Under the pieces are notes generated by a model, which saw only the letters and a program-made list of their open reading frames with translations, did not search any database and was not told the origin of the DNA. Shown piece after piece: positions 5,602 through 43,463 of a DNA stretch of 64,000 nt; the stretch's first letter is position 1, and the number at the start of each line of letters is the position of its first letter. Source of the DNA: Rhododendron vialii (lineage: Eukaryota > Streptophyta > Magnoliopsida > Ericales > Ericaceae); NCBI RefSeq assembly GCF_030253575.1, contig NC_080566.1:12541501-12605500 (forward strand). The letters are read 5' to 3'. Both the position numbers and the translations under genes were made by a program.

Positions 5602-6942
5602 CTATTTCTCTTTGATGTAAGACGAGGAACCAAAGGGCAGAGGGCTGAGGGAGGAGGTGTTCATTAGGTCCGGGCGCACGAAACCGTAGTTGCGAAGCAC
5701 CTGATTATCAGCGAAATTCAGAACCTTTTCCATCCCACCGTAGCATTGCTCAGCAGTGTACCCCCAGTGCATCCCACTACACGGCCTACATGCCGTAAAA
5801 TGCGTGATGAACGGCCGCTTTGCTCCCCCACCATCGCCGCCCAGGCTGATAACCGCCTCCCTCATCACGGCCGCATAGTGCTCACTCACCTTCTCCGCAT
5901 GTCGTCTCTGCAACTCCGCCACCCCTTTCTCTATCCTCGCATAGCTGTCACTAATATTATCGAACGAGTCAACGAAGCTGCCCCAATACCCATTTAATTC
6001 ATACTCACTCTCTATGTAAATCTTATTACCCCACGTCTCCTTCCTTTTCAATAGCAAATAAACCAAAGCTGACTGGTCATCAGAATCTGGGTGTTTTTTG
6101 TCACTAAGCGCTGATATCTGAATTTGACCCCAATTTTCATAGTTTGGAGTCTGTGGGCCCATCTCGGCCCACGCCTCCATAAACTCCATCGACCATTGAC
6201 AATTGCGGATCAAAAACACCCCAGCGTTAACCCCGCCCCAACTCTTCTTCTCATAGACCAAGTAGGACCACCCGTGCACCACGAAGTTATAATCCTTATA
6301 CTTATCCAATGGCAGCTTAAAATCCATATCAGTAAATACAGCATCTGAGTCAACCCAAAAGATCCACTCAGCCTCTGGGTGGGCCAACATTGTTGGCCGA
6401 AGCACGGGTATTTTGATCCACCAATTGACCATTTTCGGGTGCATAAACGCGTTGTTGTAGAAGATGTCGTAGCCGTGGATCCGGCAGTAATCCACCTTGT
6501 TCTTGAAAAGCCTCAAGTTCAAATGATCTCCGATTGGATTCTTGCACGGCGACGGCTGCGATCCGGTCAACACGAAAACCCGGTCCTCTACTCCCGTGGC
6601 AAACGACGGATGATACTTCAGCCACTCTCTTCTCTTCTCATCCCAGTTCTTGCCTGGATTCCCTATCTCATAACTCAGCGTCGGGTCGTCGTAGAACGTC
6701 TGGTCGACTGGGTCGTGGCCCAGGTTGAGGCCTTGATCACTCAGTACGGTTGTGCAATCTTTCGTAGCTGCGCCATCTTTTTCCTGCGATATCGTCATCT
6801 TTGACACGTCAAACATGTTGGGAAAACTAGTGGAAGGTGAGAAACTCAAAAGCAGCATTACCAGAGCCACCCCTGCTACGCATATGAAAATGGGTTTGCT
6901 CGGGCCTATGATTTTCGCAACTGTTTTTGTTACTCTGCCCAT
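5602..6942 (-). CDS. GT34 galactomannan galactosyltransferase-like enzyme, copy 1
   Basis: A 446-residue, single-exon GT34 enzyme. The family transfers galactose (GMGT, MUCI10) or xylose (XXT) in alpha-1,6 linkage to polysaccharide backbones in the Golgi; sequence style favours the GMGT branch. Visible parts are a short cytosolic tail, one signal anchor (about residues 16-35), a variable stem, and a catalytic domain starting near FYDDPTLSYEIG (83-94). The metal-binding DSD motif lies in FWVDSDAVFTD (195-205), followed by NAGVFLIRNCQWS, DSDDQSALVYLL, and the C-terminal HFTACRPCSG and LNFADNQVLRNYGF blocks. The start is the ATG of MGRVTKTV. Copies 2 and 3 start two codons earlier, but here that ATG has become ATC. 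The four residues MEKF present in copies 2 and 3 are missing. The frame is open for 65 more codons upstream, but that extension is not conserved. Exact acceptor and donor sugar are inferred. Confidence 0.92.
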   Translation of the reverse strand: MGRVTKTVAKIIGPSKPIFICVAGVALVMLLLSFSPSTSFPNMFDVSKMTISQEKDGAATKDCTTVLSDQGLNLGHDPVDQTFYDDPTLSYEIGNPGKNWDEKRREWLKYHPSFATGVEDRVFVLTGSQPSPCKNPIGDHLNLRLFKNKVDYCRIHGYDIFYNNAFMHPKMVNWWIKIPVLRPTMLAHPEAEWIFWVDSDAVFTDMDFKLPLDKYKDYNFVVHGWSYLVYEKKSWGGVNAGVFLIRNCQWSMEFMEAWAEMGPQTPNYENWGQIQISALSDKKHPDSDDQSALVYLLLKRKETWGNKIYIESEYELNGYWGSFVDSFDNISDSYARIEKGVAELQRRHAEKVSEHYAAVMREAVISLGGDGGGAKRPFITHFTACRPCSGMHWGYTAEQCYGGMEKVLNFADNQVLRNYGFVRPDLMNTSSLSPLPFGSSSYIKEK

Positions 6943-10749: not shown

Positions 10750-12102
10750 CTATTTCTCTTTGTTGTAAGACGAGAAACCAAAGGGCAGAGGGCTGAGAAC
10801 GGAGGTATTCATTAGGTCCGGGCGCACAAAACCGTAGTTGCGAAGCACTTGATTATCAGCGAAATTCAAAGCCTTTTCCATCCCACCATAGCATTGCTCA
10901 GCAGTGTACCCCCAGTGCAACCCACTACAATGCCTACACGCCGTAAAATGCGTGATAAACGGCCGCTTTCGTCCACCTCCAACGCTGCCTTGGTTGATAA
11001 CCGCGACCCTCATCAAGGCTGCATAATGCTCGCTCACCTTCTCCGCATGTCGTCTTCTCAACTCTGTCACCCCTTTCTCTATCCTCGCGTAGTTTTCAGT
11101 AATATTATCGAATGAATCGACAAGGTAGCCCCAATACCCACTTAAGTCGTACATATTCTCTATGTAAACCTTAATCCCCCATTTCTCCTTCTCTGTCAAT
11201 AGCAAATAAACCAGAGCGGACTGATCATCAGAATCCTGGTGTTTTTTGTCACTAAGCGCTTCCATTTGGATCTGACCCCACTTTTCGTAGTTTGGAGTTT
11301 GGGGGCCCATCTCGGCCCACGCTTCCATAAACTCCATCGACCATTGACAGTTTCGAATATAAAACACCCCAGCGTTAAGCCCGCCCCAACTCTTCTTGTC
11401 ATAGACCAAGTCGGACCCTCCGGGCACCACGAAGTTATGATTCTTATACTTCTCCAATGGCAGCTTAAAATCCATATCAGTAATTACTGCATCCGAGTCA
11501 ACCCAAAAGATCCACTCAGCCTCCGGGTGGGCCAACATCATTGGCCGAAGCACGGCTATTTTGATCCACCAATTGACCATTTTCGGGTGTATAAACGCGT
11601 TGTTGTAAAAGATGTCGTAGCCGTGGATCCGGCAGTAATCCACCTTGTTCTTGAAAAGCCTCAAGTTCAAATGATCTCCGATTGGATTCTTGCACGGCGA
11701 CGGCTGCGATCCGGTCAACACGAAAACCCTGTCCTCTACTCCCGTGGCAAACGACGGATGATGCTTCAGCCATTCTCTTCTCTTCTCATCCCAGTTCTTG
11801 CCTGGATTCCCTATCTCATAACTCAGCGTCGGGTCATCGTAGAACGTTTGGTCTGCCGGGTCGTGGCCCAGGCTAAGGCCTTGATCACTCACGGTTGTGC
11901 AATCTTTCATAGCTGCGCCGTCTTTTTCCGGCGATATCGTCATCTTTGACACGTCAAACATGTTGGGAAAACTAGTGGAAGCTGAGAAACTCAAAAGCAG
12001 CATTAACAGAGCCGCCCCTGCTACGCCTATGAAAATGGGTTTGCTCGGGCCTATGAATTTCTCCATTTTCGCAACTGTTTCAGTCACTCTGCCCATACCC
12101 AT
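10750..12102 (-). CDS. GT34 galactomannan galactosyltransferase-like enzyme, copy 2
   Basis: A 450-residue, single-exon GT34 enzyme and the closest relative of copy 1. The signal anchor spans about residues 21-39, with a stem to about residue 86. The catalytic domain carries FYDDPTLSYEIG, the DSD metal site in FWVDSDAVITD (202-204), NAGVFYIRNCQWS, DSDDQSALVYLL, HFTACRHCSG and LNFADNQVLRNYGF. Copy 1 has proline where this copy has histidine in the ACRHCSG block, and copies 3 and 4 have CQPC. Several potential N-glycosylation sites are visible, for example NIT in the region aligned with copy 1 NIS. The start is the first of two closely spaced Met codons (MGMGRV), shared with copy 3. Predicted role: Golgi type II enzyme adding alpha-1,6-galactose to a mannan-type backbone; substrate is inferred from family only. 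Confidence 0.92.
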   Translation of the reverse strand: MGMGRVTETVAKMEKFIGPSKPIFIGVAGAALLMLLLSFSASTSFPNMFDVSKMTISPEKDGAAMKDCTTVSDQGLSLGHDPADQTFYDDPTLSYEIGNPGKNWDEKRREWLKHHPSFATGVEDRVFVLTGSQPSPCKNPIGDHLNLRLFKNKVDYCRIHGYDIFYNNAFIHPKMVNWWIKIAVLRPMMLAHPEAEWIFWVDSDAVITDMDFKLPLEKYKNHNFVVPGGSDLVYDKKSWGGLNAGVFYIRNCQWSMEFMEAWAEMGPQTPNYEKWGQIQMEALSDKKHQDSDDQSALVYLLLTEKEKWGIKVYIENMYDLSGYWGYLVDSFDNITENYARIEKGVTELRRRHAEKVSEHYAALMRVAVINQGSVGGGRKRPFITHFTACRHCSGLHWGYTAEQCYGGMEKALNFADNQVLRNYGFVRPDLMNTSVLSPLPFGFSSYNKEK

Positions 12103-12425
12103 TTTCTGAATGAGTAATTCTAGAGAGTTGTAATTGATACCTTAATAGGAATAGGAATAGGGGAAAGAGATGAAGGCTATCAGTTGACTGTTCATCAGAT
12201 TTGCCTGAGAATATAAGAGGGAATTATTTACAACTATAAAAGCAGGAAAAACTTAATATAAGAGGGAATTATTTCGAAGGGTAGTGATGTGGTCAATAAA
12301 CAAATGGGGATCCATCTACCCGGTGAAGAAGACAAATAGAACTCTTTAAATGAACCAATAATTTATAATTAAAAAAATTAATGTAAAACTTACTAACGGG
12401 GAAATTTTTTAAATAAAAACAAAAA
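12103..12425. promoter_or_regulatory. 5' flank of GT34 copy 2
   Basis: Contains the leader sequence shared with copy 3 (gaatgagtaattctagagag) and the conserved aaagagatgaaggctatcag stretch. A short internal repeat around ataagagggaattattt occurs twice (12212 and 12260). It probably includes the promoter, but no element was assigned with confidence. Confidence 0.4.
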
Positions 12426-12429
12426 AATT

Positions 12430-13395
12430 AATTCAGTTTTTTTATTAGGCACTCCAGACAAGATTTTAATTCGCGCGGCGAACGGACAGAGGAGTTGACT
12501 AAAATGCACGTAGATTGTGCAAATTAAATGGTAACGTGAAGGACTTTTGGGAATTAGAAGCTTTGAAGTTCTTTATCTTGTTTTTATTTTTATTTTATCA
12601 AGAAGTACTTTATCTATTTGTTTTCGTTATTTTAGCTTCTTTTTTAATCAACAAGACCTGTAAATGGTTTCCCATGTTTATCGGGAAACGGGAAAAATTG
12701 CCCTAGATCCTGTTGGCACGTGGGGGAGCACTGAGGTAGTTGCTGAGTGATTCATGGCTTACTCGTGAGTGGTTTCGATGGTCAAGAGGTCTCCATGTAC
12801 TCTCGAATTTTGTCCTCCTGCGACGTTCAATTATGTTCCTCTGGTCTTTAGTGGGGATGTAGAGGCTACGGCTTTTGGTCTCGACGGGATATGCCGAAAA
12901 CCCAAAGTCTTTACGATCACGCCTACGAGATTGCTACTACACATGATCACCAACTCCTAATCTACCCTTTTTGTCCTGCAACATAACTTGTCACACCGAG
13001 GAGTCTATGGCTCATGACATCTAATTACTGAAACATCTTCTAACATACACTATACTCCCATCCTTTACGCTCTCCAACTACTGCCTGTAACATTTTTCTT
13101 TGAACAGATATAATTCAACATCTTCTAGCATCAAATTCAAGAATGATTGAGATATGAATTTGAGAGGTCTTATGGTGGGTTTGGATTTGAGATTGATAGG
13201 AGTTTAGAAAGGAGGTAGATCGATCCAATTAAATGGAGCTACAAGAAGGAGCGGCAGTGGCTACAGTTGGCAGTTGGGTTTATATTGGCCTTTCGCTTGT
13301 TCTGACCCGTTTCTCCCGTTTCTCAAGGAATAGACAATGCCCCCAAGGCTCCCTCTCGCAGCCACACCCAAATGCATGGCTTGCATAATCACGTA
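12430..13395. repeat. Upstream-flank duplication block, copy 2
   Basis: The most complete copy of the upstream block. The first half matches 7890-8465 and 17955-18262, and the second half (from about 12780) matches 21425-22045. It carries no large insertion, so it shows the arrangement before the LINE and a MITE interrupted copy 3. No protein-coding gene is supported. DNA at 13396-13584 is unassigned. Confidence 0.75.
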
Positions 13396-13584
13396 ATCCA
13401 AAAAAGTGGTTATTTCTTAAAATACTTAGGTAAAAATGTCAAAATTTTATTTTTTCGATTCCTCTTGTCGAAATGAATCAATAACCTAAAAAAATTTGAT
13501 GCAAAACTAACGAAAACAAAGAAAATTTAAATAAAAAAATTCAAATTTAAGTTAAGTCCAAAACAATGAAGCCTAAATATGACA

Positions 13585-14275
13585 AATGTGGTCGCCTCAT
13601 GTAGTACTAACAATCGTGCACTCAACTGTACTTTTTGCGAGACCCATATGCTCGGAATCTAAACAACAATGTCGAAAATTCTTTTGCCTCTGTTGCGAGG
13701 ATTTTTGAATCGTTGGATTTAAAATATTTGTTGGTCGCGAACCAGTATCATGTCCACGAGAGTCGAACCGTGGCGCTTGAAGCCTGTTATGCTTTGGTAA
13801 AAGGATATAAAGTTACACATTTACCACTGCCTGCGGGTTTTGGTAAAGATGGTAAGCATTTTATCCTACAACATTAAAGACCGTTCCACTTTTTTTAAAA
13901 ATGAAGTTTAAGAAAAACAAGGTAATTTCAAAGTCAAAAATTATGTATTTACGCAAATAATTTTTCTATCAATATGGATTTTGTTTGATAGATCTCATTG
14001 AGATATTTTAAACAGTGCAAAAAAATTTGAAAATTTATTTTTCATTTTCGTTATATTTGAGTTTAAAATTACCTTCTTTTTGAAAAAAGAAGATTTTGGA
14101 AAAAAGCGGAACGGGATCTAAACAAAATTTACACAATTCAAAGGCTGGAAAACAAGTTGGCACAAAGGCACAAAAATTTTCGAGACACAATAGATTGGAC
14201 CACAATTGAACAGTCGGGTCGAATACCCAAATTGACATCAATCCAAACCCATCTTGCATTTTTCGTCCATGAATA
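13585..14275. repeat. Type-B downstream block of GT34 copy 3 (homologous to 53590-53880)
   Basis: The pieces 13585-13700 and 14115-14270 match the DNA downstream of copy 4. Landmarks are gacaaatgtggtcgc, gacccatatgctcgg, aatccaaacccatcttgcat and tttttcgtcc. About 410 bp between them, including the MITE at 13878-14119, is absent beside copy 4. An 80-codon open frame at 13635-13877 crosses this junction and has no recognisable similarity. This block shows that the 3' half of copy 3 and its flank came from the copy 4 lineage. Confidence 0.75.
13878..14119. mobile_element. Small MITE (CCGTTCC-ended family)
   Basis: Ends are AGACCGTTCCACTTTTTT and the complement of AGATCCCGTTCCGCTTTTTT. The interior (gtatttacgcaaataattttt, atatttgagtttaaaattacc in part) is shared with the element at 14280-14499, so both belong to one family. 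Non-coding, AT-rich. Confidence 0.6.
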
Positions 14276-14279
14276 ATTA

Positions 14280-14499
14280 GGCCCCGTTCTGGTTTCTTAA
14301 AAAATGAACTTTTAGAAAATGAAGATAATTTGAAGTTTAAAAATCATGTGTTTACGCAAATAATTTTCCTATCAATATGAATCATGTATTAAACGATGCA
14401 AAAAAATAAGAAATTTCATTTTTAATTTTCGTTATATTTGAGTTTAAAATTACCTTCTTTTTAAAAAATAAGATTTATTAAGAAAGCAAAACGGGACTC
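14280..14499. mobile_element. Small MITE abutting the stop codon of GT34 copy 3
   Basis: Ends are GGCCCCGTTCTGGTTTCTTAA and the complement of GAGTCCCGTTTTGCTTTCTTAA. It is a relative of 13878-14119. The corresponding site beside copy 4 (about 53896) lacks it, so it arrived after the two lineages separated. It ends two bases from the stop codon of copy 3 and would supply most of its 3' untranslated region. Confidence 0.65.
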
Positions 14500-14501
14500 A
14501 A

Positions 14502-15854
14502 TCATGACGGAGAATCAAATTGCAAAGGAGACACAAACGAAGAATTCCCCAAACCATCGTGCACAAAACCGTAGTTCCGAAGCACCTGATTATCCGCGAA
14601 ATTCAACGCCCTCTCCATCCCATTCCAGCAACTCTCACCCCCGTAAATCGGGTTGTGCTGCCCGCTACACGGCTGACACCCCGTAAAATGCGTAGTAAAC
14701 GGCCGCCTCCACCCACCAATCCCACCGTCCCGAGTTCCATTCAAATAAACCTCCCTCATCTCCCCATACCACCCGCTCACCGCCTCCCCCCGCCGCCGCC
14801 TCAACCCACTCGCCGCCGCTTCCACCGCCCTATACATCTCCTCAATCTTCTCGTACCCATCAACTATTACCACCCAGTACCCATTAAAACTGTACCCATT
14901 CTCTATATAAACCTTTTCCCCCCATTTCTTCTTCTCTTTCAACATCAAGTAAACCAAAGCCGATTGCTCGTCACCCGGGAATTCTTTATCCGTCAGAGTC
15001 CCCCTTATGATTTCCTTCAGTTCATCGTGATTCGGATTCGCGGGGCCCAGCGACGCCCAAGTTTCGATGAAATCAATCGACCATTGACAGTTTCTGATCA
15101 AGAAGATTCCTGTGTTCAGACCCAACCAGCTTCTCTTCTCGTAAATCAAGTTTTCCCATCCGCTAATGACAAAGTTGTGATTTCCGTACTTTTCGAAGGG
15201 TAACTTGAACTCCATGTCCGTCACGACGGCGTCGGAGTCGAGCCACAAGACCCACTCGGCCTCCGGGTGGGCCACCATCGCCGCCCTCACCGGCGGCAGC
15301 TTCGCCCACACCGACGTCATCTCCCGGTGGAGGAACGCGTTGTTGTAGAAGATGTCGTGGCCCTGGATTCTGCAGTAGTCGACCTTGTTCTTGAACAGCC
15401 GCAGCAGGAGGGCGTCCCCGACCGGGTTCTCGCACGGCGGGGGCTGCGAGCCCGTCACGACGACGACACGGTTGAGTACTCCTCCTCCCGCGGCGGCGGC
15501 CAAGGAGGGGTGGTGATAGAGCCACTTTTGTCTCTTCTCGTCCCAGTTTGTTAACGGGGTCCCAATGGAGTAGCTGAATGAAGGGTCGTCGTAGAACGTT
15601 GGGTCGGCCGGGTCGTGGCCCAGGTCAAGGCCTTGATCACTCACGGTGGTGCAATCTTTCGTAGCTTCGCCGTCTTTTTCCGGCGACATCGTCATCTTTG
15701 ACATGTCAAACATGTTGGGAAAACTAGTGGAAGGTGAGAAACTCAAAAGCAGCATTAACAGAGCCACCCCTGCTACCCCTATGAAAATGGGTTTGCTCGG
15801 GCCTATGAATTTCTCCATTTTCGTAACTGTTTCAGTCACTCTACCCATACCCAT
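14502..15854 (-). CDS. Chimeric GT34 galactosyltransferase-like enzyme, copy 3
   Basis: A 450-residue, single-exon GT34 enzyme. Residues 1 to about 87 (tail, signal anchor at about 21-39, stem through DQGLDLGHDPAD) are nearly identical to copy 2. From FYDDPSFSYSIG (88-99) onward the protein is nearly identical to copy 4, including NRVVVVTGSQPPPCENPVGD, DSD in LWLDSDAVVTD (206-208), NTGIFLIRNCQWS, FPGDEQSALVYLM and HFTGCQPCSG. The switch lies close to 15590-15602. The 5' flank is of the copy 1/2 type and the 3' flank of the copy 4 type, so the joint is a real recombination point rather than local convergence. All catalytic motifs are intact and there is no stop or frameshift. Predicted Golgi enzyme of mannan galactosylation; its regulation is expected to follow the copy 1/2 promoter. 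Confidence 0.92.
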   Translation of the reverse strand: MGMGRVTETVTKMEKFIGPSKPIFIGVAGVALLMLLLSFSPSTSFPNMFDMSKMTMSPEKDGEATKDCTTVSDQGLDLGHDPADPTFYDDPSFSYSIGTPLTNWDEKRQKWLYHHPSLAAAAGGGVLNRVVVVTGSQPPPCENPVGDALLLRLFKNKVDYCRIQGHDIFYNNAFLHREMTSVWAKLPPVRAAMVAHPEAEWVLWLDSDAVVTDMEFKLPFEKYGNHNFVISGWENLIYEKRSWLGLNTGIFLIRNCQWSIDFIETWASLGPANPNHDELKEIIRGTLTDKEFPGDEQSALVYLMLKEKKKWGEKVYIENGYSFNGYWVVIVDGYEKIEEMYRAVEAAASGLRRRRGEAVSGWYGEMREVYLNGTRDGGIGGWRRPFTTHFTGCQPCSGQHNPIYGGESCWNGMERALNFADNQVLRNYGFVHDGLGNSSFVSPLQFDSPS

Positions 15855-15943
15855 TTTCTGAATGAGTAATTCTAGAGAGTTGGTAGGGGAAAGAGATGAA
15901 GGCTATCAGTTGACTGTTTGTTAGATTTGCCTGAGAATATATA
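15855..15943. promoter_or_regulatory. Proximal 5' flank of GT34 copy 3
   Basis: Matches the proximal flank of copies 1 and 2 (gaatgagtaattctagagag, aaagagatgaaggctatcag) and is then cut by a Stowaway MITE at 15944. The flank resumes at about 17228 (acaactataaaagcagg) after two insertions totalling about 1.3 kb. Any promoter element beyond the first 90 bp has been pushed away from the gene. Confidence 0.5.
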
Positions 15944-16152
15944 CTCCCTCCGTCCCAAATTGGATGTCAATTTTTGATATCCGTGTCAATTTCAACTCCT
16001 TATATCTTTCAATATGGATCTTAAAAAATATGCAATATGAATCTTGTTTGATAGTTCTCGATTAATTCTATTATATAAAGTTTTTAAACTTATGAAAAAT
16101 ATTATAGATTGAAAGATATAAGTGATGAAAAATCTTTTTGGGACGGAGGGAG
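15944..16152. mobile_element. Stowaway-type MITE in the GT34 copy 3 promoter region
   Basis: Inverted ends CTCCCTCCGTCCC and GGGACGGAGGGAG with TA on both sides, 209 bp. The uninterrupted site is visible upstream of copy 2. Non-coding. Confidence 0.88.
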
Positions 16153-16161
16153 TATATAATA

Positions 16162-16412
16162 GGAAAATTTTCAAAATGGCACCTGAACTTTCACTCAAAT
16201 ATCATAGAAACACATAAACTTAAATTTTTTTCAATTAAACACTTAGACTTATAAAATCCCCAAATCTAGGCCCTTGCCATTATACTCCATCCAATTTGTT
16301 CACAAAAGTGATGATGTGGCATATTTCTCCCGTTGAGTGCCCCAATTGCACAGGATAGGAAGTCTAAAAGATACACATAATCAAAACTCCTCCCCTCTCT
16401 TTCCCTTCTCCC

Positions 16413-16469
<57 letters not shown>

Positions 16470-17217
16470 TTGTTAGGTTTTCTCATTTTAATCTCTTTTT
16501 GTTCCCATAGGATATGTGTAAATGAGAAATGAATAAATCCTTTAATCATATCTCATGGGAAAGGGAAAAAATCCAAAACCCGAGCCCAAACTTCGCGTCA
16601 CTCACGTGTAATCACCATCACCAAATGACAGCAACTAGAATAGCAAGCCAAATCCTCCTAAGACTAGTATCTGCTTTATTTGAAAATTTCCAACCTTCCC
16701 ACCGGTAAACAGAGGAGTGGCGGAGCGGAAAACTTGCCTGCAAACTCAAACTCACCTGCGAGGTTCATCGATGGGAGCGGCGGAAAGGGGGAGGCGGAGG
16801 CGCTTGTTAATGACTGAGGACGGGGCCATCAATGGATGCTGAGACGGGCGTTGTTGCCAATTTTCTTTCAATTTTGATCGATTTGGTTTATGGGTGATCG
16901 ATTTGGTTATGGGTTTACGAGTTTATGGGTTTTTGTTCTGGATTTGCAAGAGAGATGAGAGAGAGAGAAAGAAGGGAAAGAGGGGAGAGGGGTTTTGATT
17001 GTATGTATATTTTAGACTTCCTATTATGTGCAATTGGGGCACTTAACGGGAGAAATATGCAACGTCATCACTTTTGTGAACAAATTGGATGAATTATAAC
17101 AGCAAGGGCCAAGATTTGGGAATTTTGTAAGTTCAGATGTTTAATTGAAATAAACTTAAGTTCAAATGTTTTTGTGACATTTGGGTGAAAGTTCAGATGT
17201 CATTTTAAAATTTCTCC
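16162..17217. mobile_element. Mutator-type foldback element (about 220 bp TIRs)
   Basis: The left terminus GGAAAATTTTCAAAATGGCA and the complement of the right terminus (GGAGAAATTTTAAAATGACA) begin long inverted repeats, about 16162-16385 and 17000-17217. The 9 bp sequence TATATAATA is duplicated at 16153-16161 and 17218-17226. Long TIRs, GGAAAATTT-like ends and a 9 bp duplication are Mutator (MULE) hallmarks. The middle has a (CT)n tract at about 16416-16465 and a GC-richer segment at 16690-16850, with no transposase. Confidence 0.85.
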
Positions 17218-17227
17218 TATATAATAG

Positions 17228-17714
17228 GGAAATTTACAACTATAAAAGCAGGAAAAACTTTCCTCAGGTGAAAGAAAAGAGGAGACGGAAAAAACAATTC
17301 CAAATGGGTAGTGAAGTGATCAATAAACAAAAGGGTCAAAGGCTTGGAGAATGGGGATTAGGATCGTCTCTAGGGATGGGGATCCATCTCCCCAGTGGAG
17401 AAGACAATATATATGGAGGGCATTTCCTTAATGCATTTATTAATATAATTATTTACTTATTAAAAAAAAGTCCGGCTGGAGGGACAGAGTGTACGGAGAG
17501 ACAGAGAATCAAAGTTTCATTAGCTGCCGTTAGTGTTGAATTCCTCTCAAGTTTGGCGTTCATTTGAAATAATAGCATTTTCTTTTAATAAGGTGTTCAT
17601 ATATTTTTACGTTTTATATATCTTTCGTCGAGATAAATCAATAATTTATAATTAAAAAATTAACACAAAACTTATTAATGCGAAAAAAATTTAAATGAAA
17701 ACAAAATACACTTA
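17228..17714. repeat. Distal 5' flank of GT34 copy 3
   Basis: Continues the duplicated upstream flank: acaactataaaagcagg, atcaataaacaaaagggtca and gatcgtctctagggatgggg are shared with copy 1 (7110-7200). A 128-codon open frame (17181-17567) crosses the transposon boundary and is not considered a gene. DNA at 17575-17700 matches the left part of 7232-7400. Confidence 0.6.
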
Positions 17715-17953
17715 GAGTCCGTTTCAGAACATCTTCTTAAAAAATAAGTACTTATTTCACATTTTTAAACTTAAAAATAATGAAAATGAAAAATAATTTT
17801 TCGATTTTTTTTACACCGTATTAAAGATCTCATTGAGATCTTTCAAACAAGATCCATATTACACATTTTTAAATTTCAATAAACCTATTATTTTTTAACT
17901 TGAAATTGCCTTATTAAAAAATAAGTACTTTTTTTACGTTTCGGAACGAGGCC
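17715..17953. mobile_element. Small Tourist-like MITE
   Basis: Inverted ends GAGTCCGTTTCAGAACATC and the complement of GGCCTCGTTCCGAAACGTA, with TTA on both sides (17712-17714, 17954-17956). It is 239 bp, and the inner arms share AAAAAATAAGTACTT. It sits inside the duplicated GT34 upstream flank. Confidence 0.7.
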
Positions 17954-17954
17954 T

Positions 17955-18262
17955 TAATTAGCCTTTTTATTTGGCACTCCAGACAGGATTTTGATCCGGC
18001 GAATGGGTAGAGGAGTTGACTACAATGTACGTAGATTTTGCAATGGGTAACGTGAAGAACTTTTGGGAATCAGCAGCTTTTAAGTTCTTTGTCTTGTTTT
18101 TTATTTTTTTTTAATCAACAAATATACTTTATCTATGTTTTCCCGTTATTTCAGATTCTTATGTAGTACGTAATCAACAAGACTTGTAATTCCCTAGATC
18201 CAACTGGCACGTTGGGGAGCGCTTGAGGTAGTTCATGGTTTTCTTATGAGTGGTTTCAATGG
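17955..18262. repeat. Upstream-flank duplication block, copy 3 (first part)
   Basis: Matches 7890-8210 and 12430-12775 (ggcactccagacaggatttt, gaggagttgact, ggtttcaatggtc). The match breaks off near 18262 and resumes at about 21425. The roughly 3.1 kb between holds a Stowaway MITE, an unassigned segment (18553-18881) and a LINE. Confidence 0.75.
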
Positions 18263-18338
18263 TCGAGATTGTTGGAAATAAACGATAGAGAATTTCTGTA
18301 AACATAAATGAATGGAGACAACCACAAAAATTGAAATA

Positions 18339-21424: not shown

Positions 21425-22050
21425 CAGATGTCATGTGATCTATGTACTCTCAAACTCTGTCCTCCTGCAACGCTCAACTATGTTCCATTGGCCTTTAGTA
21501 GTAGGGATGTAGAAGCTATGGCTTTTGGTCTTTGACGGGATATGCCGAAAACCCGAAGTCTTCATGATCACGCCTACGACATCGCTGCTACACATGATTG
21601 CCGCCCCCTCCACCCTTTTTGTCCAGCAACAAAACTTGGCACGCGGAGGAATCTATGGCTCATGACATCCTAATTACCGAAACCTGATGTTTCCATACAC
21701 TATACTCCCATCCTTTACGCTCTCCACCTACGGCTTGTAACATTTTTCTTGGAACAGAAATAATCCAACATCTTCTGACATCGAATTCGAAGATCAAGAA
21801 TGATTGAGATATGGATTTGAGAGGTCTTATGGTGGGTTTTGGTTTGAGATTGATAGGAGTTTAGAAAGGAGCTAGATCGAATTAAATGGAGCTACAAGAA
21901 GGAGCGGCGGTGGTTACGGTTGGCAGAGTGGTTGAGATTGACCTTTGACTTGTCATGACCCGTTTCTCGAGGAATAGACGATACCCCCAAGGCTCCCTCT
22001 CGCAACCACACCCAAATGCAGGGCTTGCATAATCGTGTGACCGCAAGGGG
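21425..22050. repeat. Upstream-flank duplication block, copy 3 (second part)
   Basis: Resumes the match to 12780-13395: ctatgtactctcaaactctg, gggatatgccgaaaacccg, catcctttacgctctccacc, gatcgaattaaatggagcta and caaggctccctctcgcaacc. It is the rightmost visible part of the GT34 duplication. DNA at 22051-22432 is unassigned; its last 100 bp are GC-richer and pair with the sequence right of 30356. Confidence 0.75.
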
Positions 22051-23516
22051 CATTCGGGTATTGTCCTCATTGCATTTGGTGATTGCTAGCTATTGACCTA
22101 ATCTTTAAAGGCGCCGCAGCCCAATAACAAATATGGGTATATACTATTTCTACTCTCATTGCCAGTATACAAAAAGCACAATACTAGTAGCAAGGTTAGA
22201 TACTAGTATCGATGCTTATCTTTTTCTATTGTATCAGTTTCATTTTTTAATTCCTCGTGATAAATGAAAATATATATATTTTGCCATTCAAAAGAAGAAA
22301 AGTAGCAAAGGTTGAATATAAATTCTAAGATGTGCACCTTGTAGAAAAGGCCAATAGGCGCGACCGTTGACCGTTTGACTAGCCAATGGGCATGCGACAC
22401 CCGTACTCGTCCTCGCGGGATTGACGATTTGACTAACTGCTTGACCGATTCCTAGACCTAAAATAATGGGTTGCCTCAAGCGTAGGGTAAAGATCAACGC
22501 AGCATAATATCCGGTAAGACCGGAGTCAAATCCACAGAGACAGCGATGTGTGCTGACTAAAAACTCGGGTTTAACTAGTGTAACAGGCTCTTAGGTAGCC
22601 ACCCCTTGTCATTTTATGCGGAGATTAACTAAAACCTAGAAATTAATTGTACTTTTCAAATAATTAAAAGAAAGGTACGGTCGTAGAGTTCATAGCACTC
22701 GCAACTAGCCCGGACTCATTTGCTCCAATCGGTGTTCTTTAAAAAGTTTAATTTTAGACTGAAAAAGATACCCCTTAATATGCGAACCCTTATGGTCACC
22801 ATTTACCCATGCGTAGCGGAGAATGAGTTTTGGACCCCCATTCCCCGTTCACATGGGCTCCGACAATGCCCCGGTTCGTCTATGGGAAGTATTTTACCAA
22901 TTTAAAATTATTTTTTTAACATTCTTTATTTCGAAATAGGAGCAGAACGCATCCAATCCGATCACAGTGTGCTATTCACCCCACTACCCTACCCCGAAGA
23001 CTACTCACTAATCATTGCATAAAAAAATAGAAAAAACCTAAAATTAATCATGCTTTTTAATACACGAGATAAAAAATAAATAAAATATCTGAATTAAACA
23101 AGAACTAACGAACAACTTTTATAAAGAACTAAAATTAAAAAGAATTACTGGGATGCAAATAATTGAACAAAACTTGAAATAACTTGAAAGGAACAAAACT
23201 CATAAGAAAAATAAACAATATTCCGAACCAATGCCGCTACCGCTTGTGTGCATTGAGCAGCCCTGTTTTTCCTTTTCTTTTCCGTCAAAAGTTTCCACGG
23301 CAGCAGCGAGACCCCAAAAGTCAGTAGGTTAAATTGCTTATATAAGCTTTGAACACCTTAATCACACAAAAGCCCTTTAGATTTCATGAAATAATAAATC
23401 AATCTTTCAATTTTGAATCATTTTGCATTTTAACTCCAAACTTCTTTAAAATCTTCTTTTTATCCAAAATCTCGGACAACGGGCTCGAGCAACCTAAAAA
23501 TATAAAAACACATAAT

Positions 23517-29055: not shown

Positions 29056-29196
29056 CACATTGCAAAATCGGCCATTTTTTTTTTCCTTTTCAACAATAAA
29101 AAAAAATTAAAGAAAAAGAACTAAAAAGAAAACAAATAAAAATTAACTACCCAAATTCTTAACACACATTACTGTCCCCGGCAATGGCGCCAAAAA

Positions 29197-30355
29197 TGTT
29201 CGACCAATTCCTAGACCTAAAATAATGGGTTGCCCCAAACGTAGGGTAAAGATCGACGCAGCATAATATCCTGTATGACTGGAGTCGAATCCACAGAGAC
29301 AACGATGTGTGCTGACTAAAAACTCGGGTTTAACTAGTTTAACAGGCTCTTAGGTAGCCACCCCTTGTCATTTTATGCGGAGATTAACTAAAACCTAGAA
29401 ATTAATTGTACTTTTCAAATAATTAAAAAAGAGGTACGGTCGTAGGGTTCATAGCACTCGCAACTGGCCCGGACTCATTTGCTCCAATCGGTGTTCTTTA
29501 AAAAGTTTGATTTTAGACTGAAAAAGATACCCCGTAAGATGTGAACCCTTATGGTCGCCGTTTACCCATGCACAGCGGAGAATGAGTTTTGGACCCCCAT
29601 TCTCCCGTTCACATGGGCTCCGACAATGCCCCGGTCCGTCTACGGAAAGTATTTTACCAATCTAAAATTATTTTTTTAACATTCTTTATTTCGAAATAGG
29701 AGCAGAACACATCCAATCCGGTCACAGTGTGCTATTCACCCCGCGACCCTATCCCGAAGACTACTCACTAATCATTGCATAAAAAAATAGAAGAAACCTA
29801 AAATTAATCATACTTTTTAATACGCGAGATAAATAAATAAATAAAATATCTGAATTAAACAAGAACCAACGAACAACTTTTATAAAGAACTAAAATTAAA
29901 AAGAATTACCGGGATGCAAATAATTGAACAAAACTTGAAATAACTTGAAAGGAACAAAACTCATAAGAAAAATAAACAATATTCCAAACCAATGCCGCTG
30001 TCGCTTGTGCGCATTGAGCAGCCCTATTTTTCCTTTTCTTTTCCGTCAAAAGTTTCCACAGCAACAGCCAGACCCCCAAAAGTCAGTAGGTTAAATTGCT
30101 TATATATTGCTTGAACACCTTAATCACACAAAAGCCCTTTAGATTTCATGAAATAATAAATCAACTTTTCAATTTTGAATCATTTTGCATTTTAACCCCA
30201 AACTTCTTTAAAATCTTCTTTTTATCCAAAATCTCGGACAACGGGCTCGAGCAACCTATAAATATAAAAACACATAATAAAAATCAGTTAACAAATATAA
30301 AAATCTAATAAATGTAAATTGGAGGGCCAAAATATATATATTTTGGCACTTATCA
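29197..30355 (-). repeat. 5' LTR of the 22.4-30.4 kb element
   Basis: Intact LTR of 1159 bp, homologous to the split LTR at 22438-25960. Its end abuts a primer-binding site at 29173-29192. It preserves the empty target of the solo LTR that interrupts the other copy. Confidence 0.88.
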
Positions 30356-32309: not shown

Positions 32310-33899
32310 GGTCTAAATAGTGATATTTCATGTGATGCTAAAGTGAGAACCCCTCGGTTCTACTTTGACGATTCAAAATGTTCAGTCTATAAACTTTATG
32401 TGTAAATCATTCACGCAAAACAGGGTCAGGCAAATCCTTAAAATGAGGCCCCTCAGAGAGTGTGTGTGTATGTGTGTGTGTGTGTAAAGAAATAACATAT
32501 ACTTACCATATATGAAAGGAAAAACTCTAAAAAGTTCTTATCTATTCTAATATATAAAGGGGGAGCACCAGTTTGGTGTCTCCTCTGTCATGTATTTTCC
32601 TTTTCTAAAATAGCCTCTATAGAGAAAAAACATACAAAATAAAATAGTTAGTTTTGAGGATATATTGGACATTTTAACGCAAAAAAAAACTCTCAAAAAC
32701 AGTTACAAACAATTTAAAATAAAGCAGCAGTATTCTCTCTCTAAAATGAGAGCTTCTCTCTCTAAAATAGGGATTTCCCCTGAGACTGGAAATTCCTTTG
32801 GTTTATCCATGTTTTCAGCTTATCCATTCCCTTTCCTAGAACCCTAGCCTTTCTAAAATCTCTTTCTCAGTCAATCTTGTCTGCTCGCACCACATTCCGA
32901 TTTCTTTCTCCATAATCACCCATCATCCCCCTGTCTCTTTCTTGATCCCGCACATATCGTTTCTCTCATCTTATCCCGAGTCAGCTTTTCTCGCTCATCT
33001 CTGTTTTCTTCTATTTTTTTCCTCTCGTCGTTCTCTTTTCCCCTTTGTCTTGCCCTCCGCTTCTCTCTCTGGTCCTTTTTCTTCTCCTTCTCATGGAGTC
33101 AGTGGATTTCATTACCCTTTACCCAAGCTTCGAGGATAACGCTGTCAAAGCAAAGTTCACCTTGGTAGGTAAAATACTCTCTCCTAAAGTTCTCAACAAA
33201 AAAGGAGTATCAAATGTGGTATCCAAAGCCTAGAGCAGGTTTTCTGAGGAAATAGTAGTCACAGCTTGGGGAGGGAATATTTTTGCTTTTGGTTTCAAAT
33301 CGGAGGACGCGGTTTGCAAAATTATGAGCCTTGGCCCATGGTCGGTTATGGGGTGTCTCTTGATCCTTCGGAAATGGGAAGCCAATAGAACTTTGGAGGA
33401 GCTGGATTTTGATTTCAGCCCTTTTTGGGTCCAAATCCAAGGCCTTCCTTTTTGTTTTTTGAATGCTAAAAGTGGGCTAAAGATAGCAGAAGCTTTGGGG
33501 GAGGTTATCGCTGTTGCAGATCCAGAAAAGGAGAGGAAGTTGATGAAGTTTATCCGAGTCAGGGTTTGGGTGGATATAACTAAGCCCTTGAAGAGGGGCT
33601 TCTTCCTCAGAAGACCAGGCGAAGAGAACCTATGGGTGAAATTCAGGTATGAACGTCTTTCGAATTTTTGCTATAGTTGTGGAAGAGTTGGCCATAATTT
33701 CAACGAATGCAAAGAAAAGGATGAATCAAAGGAAAAGACAGTGTATGATGGGGACCTACGGGCGAAGATCTCTTGGCTTGACACCATTAATTTTGGGATC
33801 AAAGAACCAACCAAGTTTTTCTACCCTGATTCCAGAAATAGGAGCAGTAGAGGCGGCGACGACGGCAGTGCGGCGGCCTCCCAAGCCCATGTGAGTACC

Positions 33900-36281
33900 T
33901 GTCACAACCCTGACCCGCCCCTCGAGGTCTTAATCATGACAAATGCCAGTGATTTCTCACTAAGGCCAAATCACAAATCAAATATTATCTAAGCAAGCGA
34001 TGATCAAAAGGGGCTAAACATAACAGCGGAAGCAAAAGTTAACTTTTATTGATAACAAACCAAAGTCTTACATAGGTTTACAAACCAAAAGGATAAACCT
34101 CTCAGAGCTGTGCTTACCTACAAATTTACAAACTAAAGTAAACACTCTGCCACACTACGCGTCGCTTCCTGAAAGGTGGAAAAGAAAATACTTAAGCCAA
34201 AGCTCGTGTGAATGATTAATACTTAACTCACATGCCTTCCATGGACAATGCAAAATAATTTGATAATATTTCAAAACAAAGAACTCAAAACTATAAGCCA
34301 AATATAATGCACATTCCGCTATTCAAAATTCAAAGCTACCAGGCGTCCCCGGTAGTGGATAAGCCAGACGTCTACGCATTATCCCAAAACACATACCAAC
34401 CTCAAACACCCTTGCTAGCCATTAAGCCGTCCCCTAGCAAGACCGGACGTTGGGAATGCCATTAAATAGATTCGCAAATATTTCACAAATAAGTCCACCT
34501 TTCATTGTTATCCATGGAGTACATACTTTATAAAACATGTTCAAATAAGCTTGATAAGGAAAACAAGTTCAAAACCATGTGTTTAAGTATTAAATCACTC
34601 ACCTCGATCCACGTGACGACTCGAACTTCCTAAAACATTCAATCAAATGGAAACATGTTTAGACAATACTCAATGATTCTATTTATGCTCAATACAATAC
34701 CCTAAAAGTGTATATTTCTCTAAGTATCAAACAACATCAACATCAATACACCAACAATGCATATCTCTTACACACCACAAGTTCTCTTTAATCCAACACC
34801 TAATCATCTAAATCAATCCATTGTATCCCCACATGTCAAATTGGCAAAGTTAATCCTTTACATTAGACTATATCCAATTAAACAACGTTAATTTAAGGAC
34901 GACACTTGAACCATTGAAAAGTATACTTCTTTTTCTTCGATCCATAGGTCATGCATCAAAAACGGAGTTCGGATAACCTTACTATGGCCTAGCGATTATA
35001 GCTCAGCGTAGCAGTGAAACTGGTGCAAAGCAGAATTTGGGTCAGTTTTGTGTGCAAATCTGTTATCGCTCGGACATACCCATGATGCATGGGATGCATC
35101 GTTGGAAAGCTTTATATGTCTAGTTTCTAACAAAACAAATGGTGCATCATTTCGAGTCCCGAGCTAAAAGTTATGGCCATTTTACCAAAGTCTGCCGGTG
35201 CTGTCAGATTCTACACGAAAATAAGTAAAATTGATTGAAAAATCATAACTCACTCATCTTAAACCCAAAAATAGTGAAACCAAAGCCAAAAGTTGCACTA
35301 CGACAAGCCCTACACTCAGTAAAAATCCCAGGTTCAGAAACAAGAGGAGATTAACCCAAAAATCAAAAGAAAAACAGTTTCGTAATCATTTTCGCACCTA
35401 TCAACCAACCCTACTTTAGAAATTCACCAAAAATTGTATACTTAACCAAATTACTTGATTCCAATGCCAATCTCTTCTTAACTTAAATATGCAGCTCCTG
35501 TAAAAGACCCAAAGCTACCCAAAATGTTCGTCACGCCCAGAAAATTAAAAGAAGACAGCCACGCACAGATTCGCGTATACAGAAAACAGCCGATATTCAA
35601 AAATTCATAACTAATTATGTGATTATCGGTTTTGCATGATCTTGGTACCGAAATCTTCGTATTAAAACGTACTTTAACAGTTATGAAGGCACCAAAAATT
35701 AATTCCTAGCAGAAAGGCTCCAAAAAGACAGATTACCAGAACCCACGAAATTTTCAGCATACGATAGGTTTATTCAAGACTCAAATAGATGATCAAACTT
35801 GATTCTTATACATCTAACCAACACTTAAACATGTAAAGAAGGCAGGAGATCCCTACCTCGAAGGTTAGAAGCAAGCCCGAACATGGAGGAAACTTCGAAG
35901 TGCTCCTATCGTGAATTTTCTTGGATGGATAGAAAGCTCTCGTCGCAAAGAACAACTTTAGTACTTGATATTTTTCAAAAGTCTCACTCGCGGTCGATGA
36001 AATCGAAGAGAGAAGGTGAGAGAGGTGAGAGCCGAGAGAGAGGAGAGAACGGGAGAGAGAGAGGCGTACGGGGGAAGAAAATAATCTTCCCTGATATTTT
36101 GATCCTTATATAGGCCAATTCACACACACACCCTTCAAGTATATAACTACATCATCAACTCCCACAACTTACAAGTCATCTCACATTGACCCAACTCATA
36201 TCTTCTGCATTATCCATATTTCGATAATCCAAATACATATTAAACATTTAAAATTTGAGAAAATAATTATGGGTCTCTACA
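33900..36281 (-). repeat. 3' LTR of the young LTR element
   Basis: Nearly identical to 40227-42607. Differences seen include attatc versus atcatc near 33984, tagaaattcacc versus tagatttcacc near 35415, and ccaatgcc versus ccaattcc near 35461. A GA-rich stretch (about 36005-36070) followed by TATA-like ttatataggcc lies near its right end. The 76-codon open frame at 35883 is repeated in the other LTR and is not a gene. Confidence 0.92.
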
Positions 36282-39200
36282 ATCTACCCTCCTTAAAAAA
36301 ATTTCGTCCTCGAAATTTGATAAACCAAATTAACTAATTCATGCAACAATTTAGATATGTAACAACACACCAGGCAAGATAACACAACGAGTCTACACCA
36401 CGGAACCCAGATTCAAGAAACTTATATCAATCACGACGACGATAAGTCCAAATACTTCTTTCTATTTCATCTTTTCTCGTTTCATTTCTTTTGCAATTTC
36501 AAATTCTCACATTAGAATAACCTCATCACATCCCCATATATCCACTCTTTCCTTTCAAGGCACAACTTTTCATTTCAACATTTTCTTCCGCGCAGAATCG
36601 TCATGAGACTAAAATCAACCACCAATTCATACTAGAGTTCTAGTTAATCAAACGATATCATCAAATCACACTCTAACATCACTTAACATCAAGGCTATAC
36701 GTATCAACTTAATCTCATGAAAGTAATAGAAGGCATTTTAATTTCAAATGTGTTTGACCATTTTACTTCACTCTCACATATTCATAGAAGACAAAGTGAA
36801 GTCACTTAAACATGCATGCTTGTCACAACCTCTTTCTCCTCGCTTAATGATCTCAGCGGATCGCTCTCGGGAATTCATATTTTTCTTGGAATCTAATTGA
36901 AGGATTCTTATAGTAATCATGTAACAAATCTTGGAGAAAATATCTTGGAACATCTACGTGTAAAACATCGTGTATATAGGACAGTTCTAGTGACAAAGCT
37001 AACTGGGAACTAACATCTTTAATACTTCTTATCATTCCAAAGAGACGCTATTCCGATACTAGCTGAAAATTATAAAAGGTATAAAACTCGACACTAAAGC
37101 AAGTGTCCACCAATTTCCTTTGAAATCTAAAATGGAAACACAAAACATGTCCTCCAAACTATGGATCCCTATCTTGTAAATCTGCAATACTCCACTCCAG
37201 AAAGGTTAACACCTTCTGTCTAAATGAAAATTATCATTCTTGTTAAGGTTTTCTCTACTAATACAAGACAAGTCAACTAAGTAGATTACAGTCAGCTTTT
37301 AAAATAAACATACATAAGAAGCTACACCAGATGAGTTATGCGTCCAAACGAGTCTGTATGCTACGAATTCCACTTCAAAGATATACCCCAACCTTTACAA
37401 AACCAATAAGAACACAAGCGGAAAGCCCCCTTCTCAATCGGAGGTGGAGAATTGCAAATATACTGTATTAACATGTCTAAAATTTGTTCCCAATTCTTAT
37501 TCTCTATCTCTAATAGAGAACCAAATGCAACCAATGCAATAAGATTAAAGGATAATATGCCTCAATACTCCAAAAATGACTCGAAGTGATTAGATGCAAA
37601 AATTTCCAAAATTTGAGATTTTAATTCATGACCATAAGATACAGTTCTGATCATACGTGAGGGAATAACATATATTCAGTGATACACTTAAACCATTGGG
37701 AAGTAAATTTATTTTCTTCCTTCTTTTCCTTTTTTTTTTTTTTTTTTGATAGGTCACACAACAAAAATGAAGTTCAGGTAACCTTTCTACTAGTGAAGGT
37801 ACTATGGAAAAGTCGCTCAATGGAGTATACAATGTGCAAAACAGAAAGTTATAAACGGAAGCAATATCCCATCTATTAGGACTTAGATCTATAAGGTGTG
37901 TTACCCAACAGTTTAATAATTGAAAGGTTATACCAGTCCACAATTCAATACCATAATTTTATGCATTTATTCCAAAGATTCCAAACACATGCAGAATTAC
38001 ACTCTACAATATTAGGAGTCGAACCTTTAGGAAGTTAATCCAATTCCCACGGCATGATGCAAAATACAGTTCAGCTGTGATCTTCTTTACCAAAAATGAA
38101 TTAGATTAATAATGTTCATCATATCCCAATAGGATTTCATAACAGAAGATACAGTTTGAACTTACAACAAAATTTCATTTTTTTTTTTTTTCCCCTTGGT
38201 ACGTCATAATAATTGACGGCGTTATTTTACCGGATTGCTTCATGTATTCACATCAGATAAGTAATTCAACAACAGGAAGCAAAAAGGTTCTTTTTCTTCT
38301 TCATAGCTCAAGATTATTAGAAAGTAAGAAGTATCTCAAATTTGTTAAGGATTTCCAATCTAGTTTTTCGACAACCATACGATTTGATCTCAAAACAATA
38401 TATACAAGTCATATTATGCGTAACCGTCATTACATATTAACTCTAAACATGGATGAGACAGTTCTTTTTTTTTTTTGGTCAAAACTAACAAACAATGTTG
38501 CATCATATTATGTCAGCGTGTAAGTCTAATGTGTTCCCTTCCACTTATGCTCCCACTTCACCTTTTCAGTTCCTATTAATCCACCCAATTATAACTTTAG
38601 CAGCAAACTGTGATTTAGTCTGTCAAAGCTTATTGTCCAACTTTTTGTATCTCTATATATAAAGCGAATCTTGTATGGTTCAAATACTCTTGGAGACATT
38701 TTAGATTCCCATGTCCTCCTAACCTAACTACCGATTCTAGTTACACAGAAATAGATAAGTCCCAACGACACTAATTGTTTCCGAAACATTCTACTCCTAT
38801 TCTAATAGAACATCAACATCTAGAGCTACACAAAGAGCAAAACAAACAGTTCAATTCTAGCAACTCCAAATATGACAATCTATAACATATTATGATAACA
38901 AGTCAAGTCTCTAAAAGTCATTAACATCATCTTTTCCTACCTATCCATTTATAATTTCACCAATTTTTATAGAACATAAAAACAATATTCACAGTAGACC
39001 CATCAAGCAATGATAAGAGGACATGCATACTCTTCATAATTATGCTCAAACAAATTAATAAGCTAATTTTTAGAGAGAAGTCATCATAGTTAAATCGTTT
39101 ACTTCATATTAAAAGAAATCGAGTAGCATTTTGCTTATTCGTATCCTATATAGCAACAAGGTCCAAAGTGATATGTTTTCTTCTTTTTGCTATTGAAATC

Positions 39201-40226
39201 TTCACACCAAAATAGTCCCATATTTCAAAATATAAGATCAACAAGCAAGTATAAATCTTTAACTATAATGACACGTGAACTATCAATATTCAGTTCCTTC
39301 GTAGGGTACGAATCTTCTCTTCTTTTTTTTTTTTAATCTTGTTTAAGGGCTTCTATTCTAGATATCCAATCATAAAGCTGCGGTGGCCAGTCGCACTTCA
39401 AATTGAATATCCGGAGATAGATTCCCAAAGTCTTAAGAACGCATTTCACCTTTCGCCATATACATTCACCTTTAACAACCAACACATCACTTAGCACGCA
39501 CACATATCAATGCATTGTAAATTTAAGCTTATCCTCTTAAATAGCACAATAAAATCGACCATCACATTCTGCTCTCCTATTTCCATACCCAATGTTCCTA
39601 AAATAGAACACATGTGAAATTCAGGCAATTTAAAAGGTCAAGTAGTATGGTTACGACTAGTTAAAAGCAAGAACATATACAAAGATGTACAAAGACAAAA
39701 ACATTTTATACCAATCAGATAACTACATAGGTAAGGTATACCTATTTGCTCTAAATTAACCCCATGTACATCTTTAGGAATTGATTTATCCACCTTAACT
39801 CGCATATGCCAATCAATGATACACAAAACACATTTCTTTTTCGACATTCAAAACTAAAAAGAAATATACCACATATACATCAAGGTATATAACTTAATAT
39901 CTCAATACCTTTAGTTTCACCATTTACTAGTAAAACACAACACAGCACATAGTCGCTAAAGATACACATAATCACAAAGCATTCAATTTTCAGTTACAGG
40001 AGTTCATCCTATAGCTCTGAGGGTAAGTGTAAGTGTAGTCATAAATAGTGCTCCGGTCAAAATAAACAATCCCTTCGAATAACCTTTGGAACCATCCTAA
40101 ATACTTTACATCGAGACTATGTTTCCATTTCAAACTCTATTGAGGTTCTATAAATCCCAAGGATGTGTCCCTAGCGATGTGAACCTCCACACTTTCGGTC
40201 GGACCATGCTCTGATACCAAAAACTT
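36282..40226 (-). other. Interior of the young LTR element, no coding potential
   Basis: A 3.9 kb AT-rich region bounded by a polypurine tract (36282-36294) and a primer-binding site (about 40201-40219). The longest open frames are about 100 codons on either strand, and none resembles gag, protease, reverse transcriptase, RNase H or integrase. Many oligo-T/oligo-A tracts are present. A sequence near 38650 (ctctatatataaagcgaatc) resembles a Helitron 5' end but has no partner. Confidence 0.75.
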
Positions 40227-42607: not shown

Positions 42608-43463
42608 GTACCTCTGGCACCTTGGCGTTTTCTGATAGTGACAAAAACAATCTGATTGGTTCGGACCAAAATCGGACCGGGGTGGTGGAGAAGGCCTCTG
42701 CGGAGCCCGTTGGATTACAGGTGTCATCTCCTGATGTAGGCTTCGTTGGCAATAAAACAAAGGATGTTGGACCTTTGTCAACTGACGTAGGCTCACATCA
42801 CGCTTTGGCCACCCTGGCTGCAATTCAAGTAACCCCTTCACCTAAGCCTGCAAGTGGGCTGAGTTCTCAAAGCCCAATTGGATCTCTAACCTCGGGCCAG
42901 TTGGATTATTTTGTGGAAGAGCCAGATAGCCCATCCAGTTCTCATCGGACCTTAGTGGATTTGGAGAGTGATAAGTCCTCCTCCCTAAAGCCCCCCAAAA
43001 ACCCTCTTATGGGCCAGGCTGAGGTTAGTCTCTCTAATATTTTTAATCGCTTTCTTAGTATCAAGCGTAAATATGAGGAAGATTCAGAGGATAATCTGCC
43101 TCTGAAGAAATCCAATCTGGCCATTAGGGATGGTGATTCTGCTCTCATCACCTTTCCACCATCCCCTATTATTCATTCTCCCCCCACCTTTTATCCTGCT
43201 ACTTCGGTTTCGTTCGAGCTATCCAAAGGCAGACCTGTCAAAGGTGATGTTGGCCTTCGTCGCAGTCCTCGGAAGAAGGGAGTACCTCGATCTCGCCCAT
43301 CTGATCTTCAGTTGTTGGAGGTAAATGTGGCTCATGAAGCTGAGATTCCTAGTGTTAAAGCGAATCAGGATGTCGAGTTGGAGGAGGCTATCTCAAATGA
43401 AGAATCTCAATTGGGATCTGTTTCTCGGGCTTTAGTGGCTGGCCCTAATCAGCCACAGGTCCA

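Follow-up and report, generated by a model that had tools for sequence, protein, structure and literature searches.

The GT34 gene at 14502-15854 (minus strand) of the analyzed stretch of Rhododendron vialii DNA (64,000 nucleotides, hereafter the window), here called copy 3, is a mosaic of two other genes of the same cluster. Its segment for the predicted cytosolic tail, membrane anchor and stem (15597-15854, minus strand; supported by silent-site divergence, dS, and hydropathy) is of the copy-2 type, and its segment for the catalytic domain (14502-15582, minus strand; supported by dS and a PF05637 match at residues 128-398) is of the copy-4 type. The mosaic is confirmed by silent-site distances, a sliding-window profile and a recombination test, and copy 3 quite probably arose as the central gene in the duplication product ('anti-Lepore') of an unequal crossover. 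Here nature has cleanly exchanged the anchor of a putative Golgi glycosyltransferase at its border with the catalytic part, and both parent genes are preserved nearby, so that copy 3 can show directly whether the anchor and stem determine Golgi position and partner choice independently of catalysis.

A mosaic gene in a four-gene GT34 cluster

The window holds four GT34 ORFs, each uninterrupted and on the minus strand, and all four exceeded the PF05637 cut-off in a Pfam profile search: copy 1 (5602-6942), copy 2 (10750-12102), copy 3 with its intact ORF of 450 codons (450 aa), and copy 4 (53909-55192). For copy 3 the score was 177.4 bits against a cut-off of 23 (5.3e-52), with residues 128-398 covering profile positions 3-236 of 238. 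Identity windows and dS separate the genes into two types, B (copies 1 and 2) and A (copy 4), with copy 3 mixing both; in the catalytic stretch, copies 1 and 2 share 60-63% identity with copy 4 at a dS of ~1.5-1.7. Read along the direction of transcription, copy 4 (A) comes first, then copy 3 (5'B/3'A) and then copy 2 (B). A tblastn search revealed no GT34 relic in the window, all matches better than E 0.01 falling inside the four genes; an Rfam search returned 0 matches, and scans of genome-contig and viral-contig collections yielded pattern matches, no GT34 relative among them. As a side observation, copies 1 and 2 differ from each other at 31 of 635 aligned nucleotides in the 5' part (0.049) and at 91 of 700 after column 673 (0.130), a shift reached by 2 of 20,000 permutations (third positions, Fisher p 0.0006), which may mark a second, conversion-like boundary in the cluster.

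In 90-nt windows up to codon-alignment column 270, copy 3 is 0.92-0.96 identical to copy 2 and 0.42-0.54 identical to copy 4, and in windows that start at column 271 or later the identity is 0.84-1.00 with copy 4 against 0.52-0.78 with copy 2; the profile thus switches at column 270/271, and there is no uniform likeness to one parent. MaxChi, used as the recombination test, returned a chi2 of 327 on 444 informative sites, a value that 0 of 100,000 permutations reached (highest, 30.9), with 91 of 94 informative sites being copy-2-like to the left of the break and 330 of 350 copy-4-like to the right. At silent sites, the distance to copy 2 is 0.062 (0-0.141) over alignment codons 1-80 and 1.40 (1.07-2.15) in the catalytic part, while the distance to copy 4 is saturated (>1) N-terminally and 0.113 (0.066-0.171) in the catalytic part. 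Because this contrast lies in dS, selection on the protein, however uneven, is unable to produce the mosaic. Silent-site distances were chosen over a four-taxon tree test since the unrooted four-taxon tree gives the same split for both parts. The original prediction had assigned residues 1 to about 87 to copy 2 and everything from FYDDPS onward to copy 4, and both assignments hold.

The MaxChi break falls at 15602/15601, yet site 15597 is again copy-2-like and a steady copy-4 run begins at 15582, so that the joint most likely lies within 15583-15596 (minus strand), a 14-bp tract that is identical in copies 2 and 4 and falls within codons 87-91 (FYDDP). This refined position overlaps the 15590-15602 first proposed and agrees with the proposal that the joint sits inside a stretch common to both types. 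It is in frame, at homologous codons of copies 2 and 4. Its predicted location at the stem/catalytic boundary is likewise borne out: the match to the XXT1 crystal chain (6bsu_A) begins at copy-3 residue 95, 4-8 residues past the joint, which therefore immediately precedes the folded domain. Copies 2 and 4 are today 46% identical (81/177) before the joint and 65% identical (695/1,062) after it, which places the exchange at the edge of their homology. For genome evolution, copy 3 exemplifies exchange between paralogues ~65% alike, at such an edge.

The duplicated interval and the origin of copy 3

The mosaic extends beyond the coding sequence. As predicted, the 3' flank of copy 3 (13575-14277, minus strand) is of the copy-4 type, with matches in two blocks split by insertion (14277-14120, 81% to 53900-53745; 13727-13575, 78% to 53742-53588; 158 columns each), and it matched neither copy 1 nor copy 2. 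Dispersed short repeats occur at 13881-14115, 14284-14496 and 17763-17915, two of them being the insertions that split this flank. Further toward copy 2 lies the middle of a duplicated interval (12781-13390, minus strand; 83.5% to 21430-22034, E 4e-165), followed by the copy-2 upstream blocks (12103-12787, minus strand), which are collinear with the copy-3 upstream region at 15855-18268. Overall, the copy 3-copy 2 interval (2,399 bp) has 14 matches in the copy 4-copy 3 interval (best E values 4e-165, 3e-50, 8e-35 and 8e-29), nine of which run on the same strand in strict order from 14277 to 12103, amount to ~1,555 bp (65%) and are collinear with both ends of the longer interval; the remaining five, reversed in strand or misplaced in the series, resemble dispersed repeats. 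When the longer interval was shuffled 50 times and compared on the plus strand only, no match below E 1e-3 arose, and the two control stretches, which lie past copy 4 and past copy 1, each produced a single weak match. The segment 12428-13016 (including 12792-13016 of the middle block) is found before copy 1 too and is therefore generic B-type upstream DNA. The two A-side blocks have no other occurrence in the window, and 13017-13390 is confined to the two intervals; judged by this distribution, these three are the diagnostic blocks of the duplication.

Between copies 4 and 3, 31.5 kb (22035-53587) are not matched collinearly by any DNA between copies 3 and 2, and ~24 kb of them are spanned by an LTR-like repeat pair (22435-23516 and 29194-30278, 94.65%) and a LINE with a nested LTR element. 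The LINE remains (33237-49675) were recognized by their protein domains, namely DUF4283 and zf-CCHC_4 (33237-33989), RVT_1 (46875-47657), and zf-RVT and RVT_3 (48092-49675). The nested LTR element (33900-42607) sits in the first ORF of the LINE, has 2.38-kb LTRs that are 99.83% identical, TG...CA ends and GTACC on either side, holds no ORF of at least 150 aa wholly within it, and is apparently young. Consequently, the 38 kb between copies 3 and 4 noted originally is not the original spacing.

Unequal crossing-over is a well-known route to new genes. Between an A- and a B-type gene, its duplication product has just the gene order observed here, and it predicts that the copy 3-copy 2 interval repeats the copy 4-copy 3 interval. 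We propose that two tandem GT34 genes of long-separated types, an A gene that is now copy 4 and a B gene ancestral to copy 2 or to both copies 1 and 2, mispaired and exchanged inside FYDDP, at the start of the catalytic domain. The resulting array would have read A - X - (5'B/3'A) - X' - B, the intergenic DNA X being present twice. Transposons would later have swollen X to 38 kb and invaded the copy-3 upstream region, and later conversion probably evened out parts of the coding sequences. The event is of a known kind in a new instance; among the publications listed by literature searches, none was named as describing a GT34 chimera from unequal crossing-over. Anti-Lepore globin is a beta-delta fusion gene between delta and beta, and the copy-3 locus resembles it in the order A-(5'B/3'A)-B in one orientation, the in-frame homologous joint, the retention of both parents and the duplicated, here collinear, intergenic DNA. 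Unlike anti-Lepore globin, copy 3 is a plant GT34 gene whose parents are far more diverged (catalytic dS ~1.5); its origin also lies well back in time, the segments being 5-19% apart by now, and has been overprinted by transposons and probably by conversion.

Several observations fit a single crossover poorly. After one event, all duplicated parts should be equally diverged at neutral sites, but copy 3 shows a range of 0.045-0.19 from its parents (p-distance 0.045 in the 5' UTR, dS 0.06 N-terminally and 0.11 in the catalytic part, 0.12-0.19 in the intergenic blocks). Divergence from copy 4 is also uneven within the gene, with 19/134 (0.142) just after the joint and 45/960 (0.047) beyond (57 of 20,000 permutations; third positions 9/45 versus 20/320, Fisher p 0.004), which suggests later conversion in the catalytic part. 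Such conversion could account for the unequal divergence, as an added assumption. The 46% and 65% identities of copies 2 and 4 appear to offer little homology for an ordinary crossover and count against it, and the five disordered interval matches of 14, together with conflicting upstream affinities to copies 1 and 2 (see below), would likewise count against a single crossover.

The original prediction had named unequal crossing-over or gene conversion; the gene order and the collinear duplicated interval favor the former over the latter. That copy 3 is a plain tandem copy of copy 4 whose 5' part was overwritten by B-type gene conversion draws some support from similar heterogeneity in the cluster (copies 1 and 2, from 0.049 to 0.130; copies 3 and 4, from 0.142 to 0.047), but the entire upstream interval up to 22034 is of the type that precedes copy 2, so that the tract would have to span all of it; moreover, a comparison with the DNA upstream of copy 4 revealed no A-type 5' flank upstream of copy 3, the one common piece (~104 bp, 78%) being present upstream of copy 1 too, and we regard this origin as very improbable. 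A tandem duplication through replication template switching, with microhomology at the 14-bp FYDDP tract, would give an identical product, and the position of the exchange within an identical tract at the 5' edge of alignable homology, where identity steps from 46% to 65%, is in its favor. However, an in-frame joint at exactly homologous codons comes free with homologous pairing, and of the six longest tracts identical between copies 2 and 4, four exceed it in length (19, 19, 16 and 16) at other sites, so tract length does not mark the FYDDP site; we consider template switching an unlikely route.

The polarity of the event rests on parsimony among the genes of the cluster. Copy 3 could in principle be ancestral and the recombination have affected the 5' part of copy 4 or the 3' part of copy 2 instead, given that the N-terminal part is unrooted and the genome- and viral-contig scans gave no relatives. 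This reversal would require an extra donor or event, while one crossover yields genes, flanks and interval together, and the divergence of copy 2 from copy 4 is ancient on either side of the joint (dS ~1.5 or saturated), which leaves the reversal a marginal probability. An assembly artefact fusing two genes has a negligible one: a misjoin would be expected to be near-identical to its parents, but 13 of 252 aligned 5' sites distinguish copy 3 from copy 2, 64 of the 1,094 that follow distinguish it from copy 4, its frame is open, and the intergenic blocks are 12-19% apart. An unequal crossover between A and B remains our preferred origin of copy 3.

Catalytic domain, acceptor pocket and putative function

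The copy-3 protein most likely works in the Golgi as a type II GT34 transferase, combining an anchor of type B with a catalytic domain of type A. Its best hydrophobic 19-mer, the putative membrane anchor, lies at residue 23 (mean hydropathy 2.29), and DSDA at residue 206 aligns with the DSD of XXT1 and XXT5, the metal-binding motif of GT34, which all four copies keep. Where copies 1 and 2, XXT1 and XXT5 read DDQ, copies 3 and 4 read DEQ. XXT1 (6bsu) and XXT5 (9p3j_B) are the best solved relatives, alignable from just past the joint, and the cluster copies are 45-51% identical to them, compared with 70% between XXT1 and XXT5 over the same stretch. An XXT identity of the copies was rejected on these values (copy 3-XXT1 0.484 and copy 3-XXT5 0.457 versus XXT1-XXT5 0.699), and the likeliest candidate activity of copy 3 would be that of a mannan alpha-galactosyltransferase (MAGT).

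Like AtMAGT1, AtMAGT2, CtMAGT and PtMAGT (PMC11785759), the cluster copies have a GT34 domain, a predicted type II layout and residues that can be mapped to the acceptor subsites S2 and S3. MAGT acceptor specificity has been placed at S3 (Thr; Leu in pine) and S2, the latter being Gly in AtMAGT2 and acidic in the others, and Thr at S3 is said to occur in most eudicots (PMC11785759). We placed both sites by sequence alignment alone, since an AlphaFold2 model on the four-sequence alignment (mean pLDDT 28.4) was unusable. The mapped S2 residue is Ser, Tyr, Val and Gly in copies 1-4 (Val329 in copy 3, Gly307 in copy 4), so that only copy 4 has Gly as in AtMAGT2 (PMC11785759). The mapped S3 residue is Gly in copies 1 and 2 and Leu in copies 3 and 4, unlike the Thr reported for most eudicots (PMC11785759). 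Two observations support the S2 placement. In copies 1 and 2, S3 and S2 are 86 positions apart, just as T222 and G308 are in AtMAGT2 (PMC11785759), and in copies 3 and 4 a one-residue gap brings this to 85. Moreover, within copy-3 residues 95-341, no column other than that of residue 329 pairs Ile in XXT1 with Gly in XXT5. Against the placement, a review numbers the XXT1 residue I391 (PMC9201394), which did not match the chain position behind the S2 mapping.

The original assumption that catalysis is unchanged has become doubtful, as 34 aligned positions differ between copies 3 and 4 from residue 85 on (gaps included), among them the mapped S2 residue. If the S2 mapping is right, copy 4 would accept galactosylated neighbors and copy 3 would not, and copy-3 catalysis has probably changed; the S2 pocket of its A-type domain would have gone from Gly to Val, provided that Gly is ancestral for A. 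Copies 3 and 4 carry 16 and 20 unique sites, respectively (similar rates), at a dN/dS of 0.42, which is compatible with two working genes under moderate constraint. More tentatively, the cluster might vary the mannan side-chain pattern: the crossover would have put a B anchor on an A domain, the four S2 and two S3 residues would space galactose differently, and copy 3 would be a spacing-restricted form of the copy-4 activity at the type-B Golgi position, a scenario we consider possible and rather doubtful. Copies 3 and 4, which differ at the mapped S2 site (Gly to Val), are a natural pair to test the published steric-pocket proposal for GT34 side-chain spacing.

Upstream region and insertions

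Overall, the 5' flank of copy 3 is of the copy 1/2 type. Its description as copy-2-like applies to the proximal 83 bp, which like the N-terminal codons are nearest to copy 2, but not to the upstream blocks 17219-17409 and 17595-17706, which are nearer to copy 1 (85% and 89%) than to copy 2; owing to this split, the 5' parent is best called B-type.

Two insertions interrupt this flank 83 bp before the copy-3 ATG, a Stowaway-like MITE of 209 bp with CTCCCTCCGTCCC ends (15944-16152) and a foldback element of 1,056 bp with ~250-bp inverted repeats (16162-17217). The latter is flanked by a 9-bp target-site duplication (TATTATATA, at 16153-16161 and 17218-17226), from which we infer a Mutator-like element. 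Together they total ~1.28 kb and part DNA that is contiguous in copies 1 and 2, where no such insertion is present at the same upstream site. All that still adjoins the copy-3 gene is the 83 bp and a possible TATA-like stretch created at the MITE edge. With ~1.28 kb inserted, the earlier reading that copy 3 stands under the copy 1/2 promoter is unproven, and for any altered expression of copy 3 the insertions are as likely a source as the fusion. Further, AATAATTCCCTCTTATATT occurs twice upstream of copy 2 (about 12190-12240) and once upstream of copy 1.
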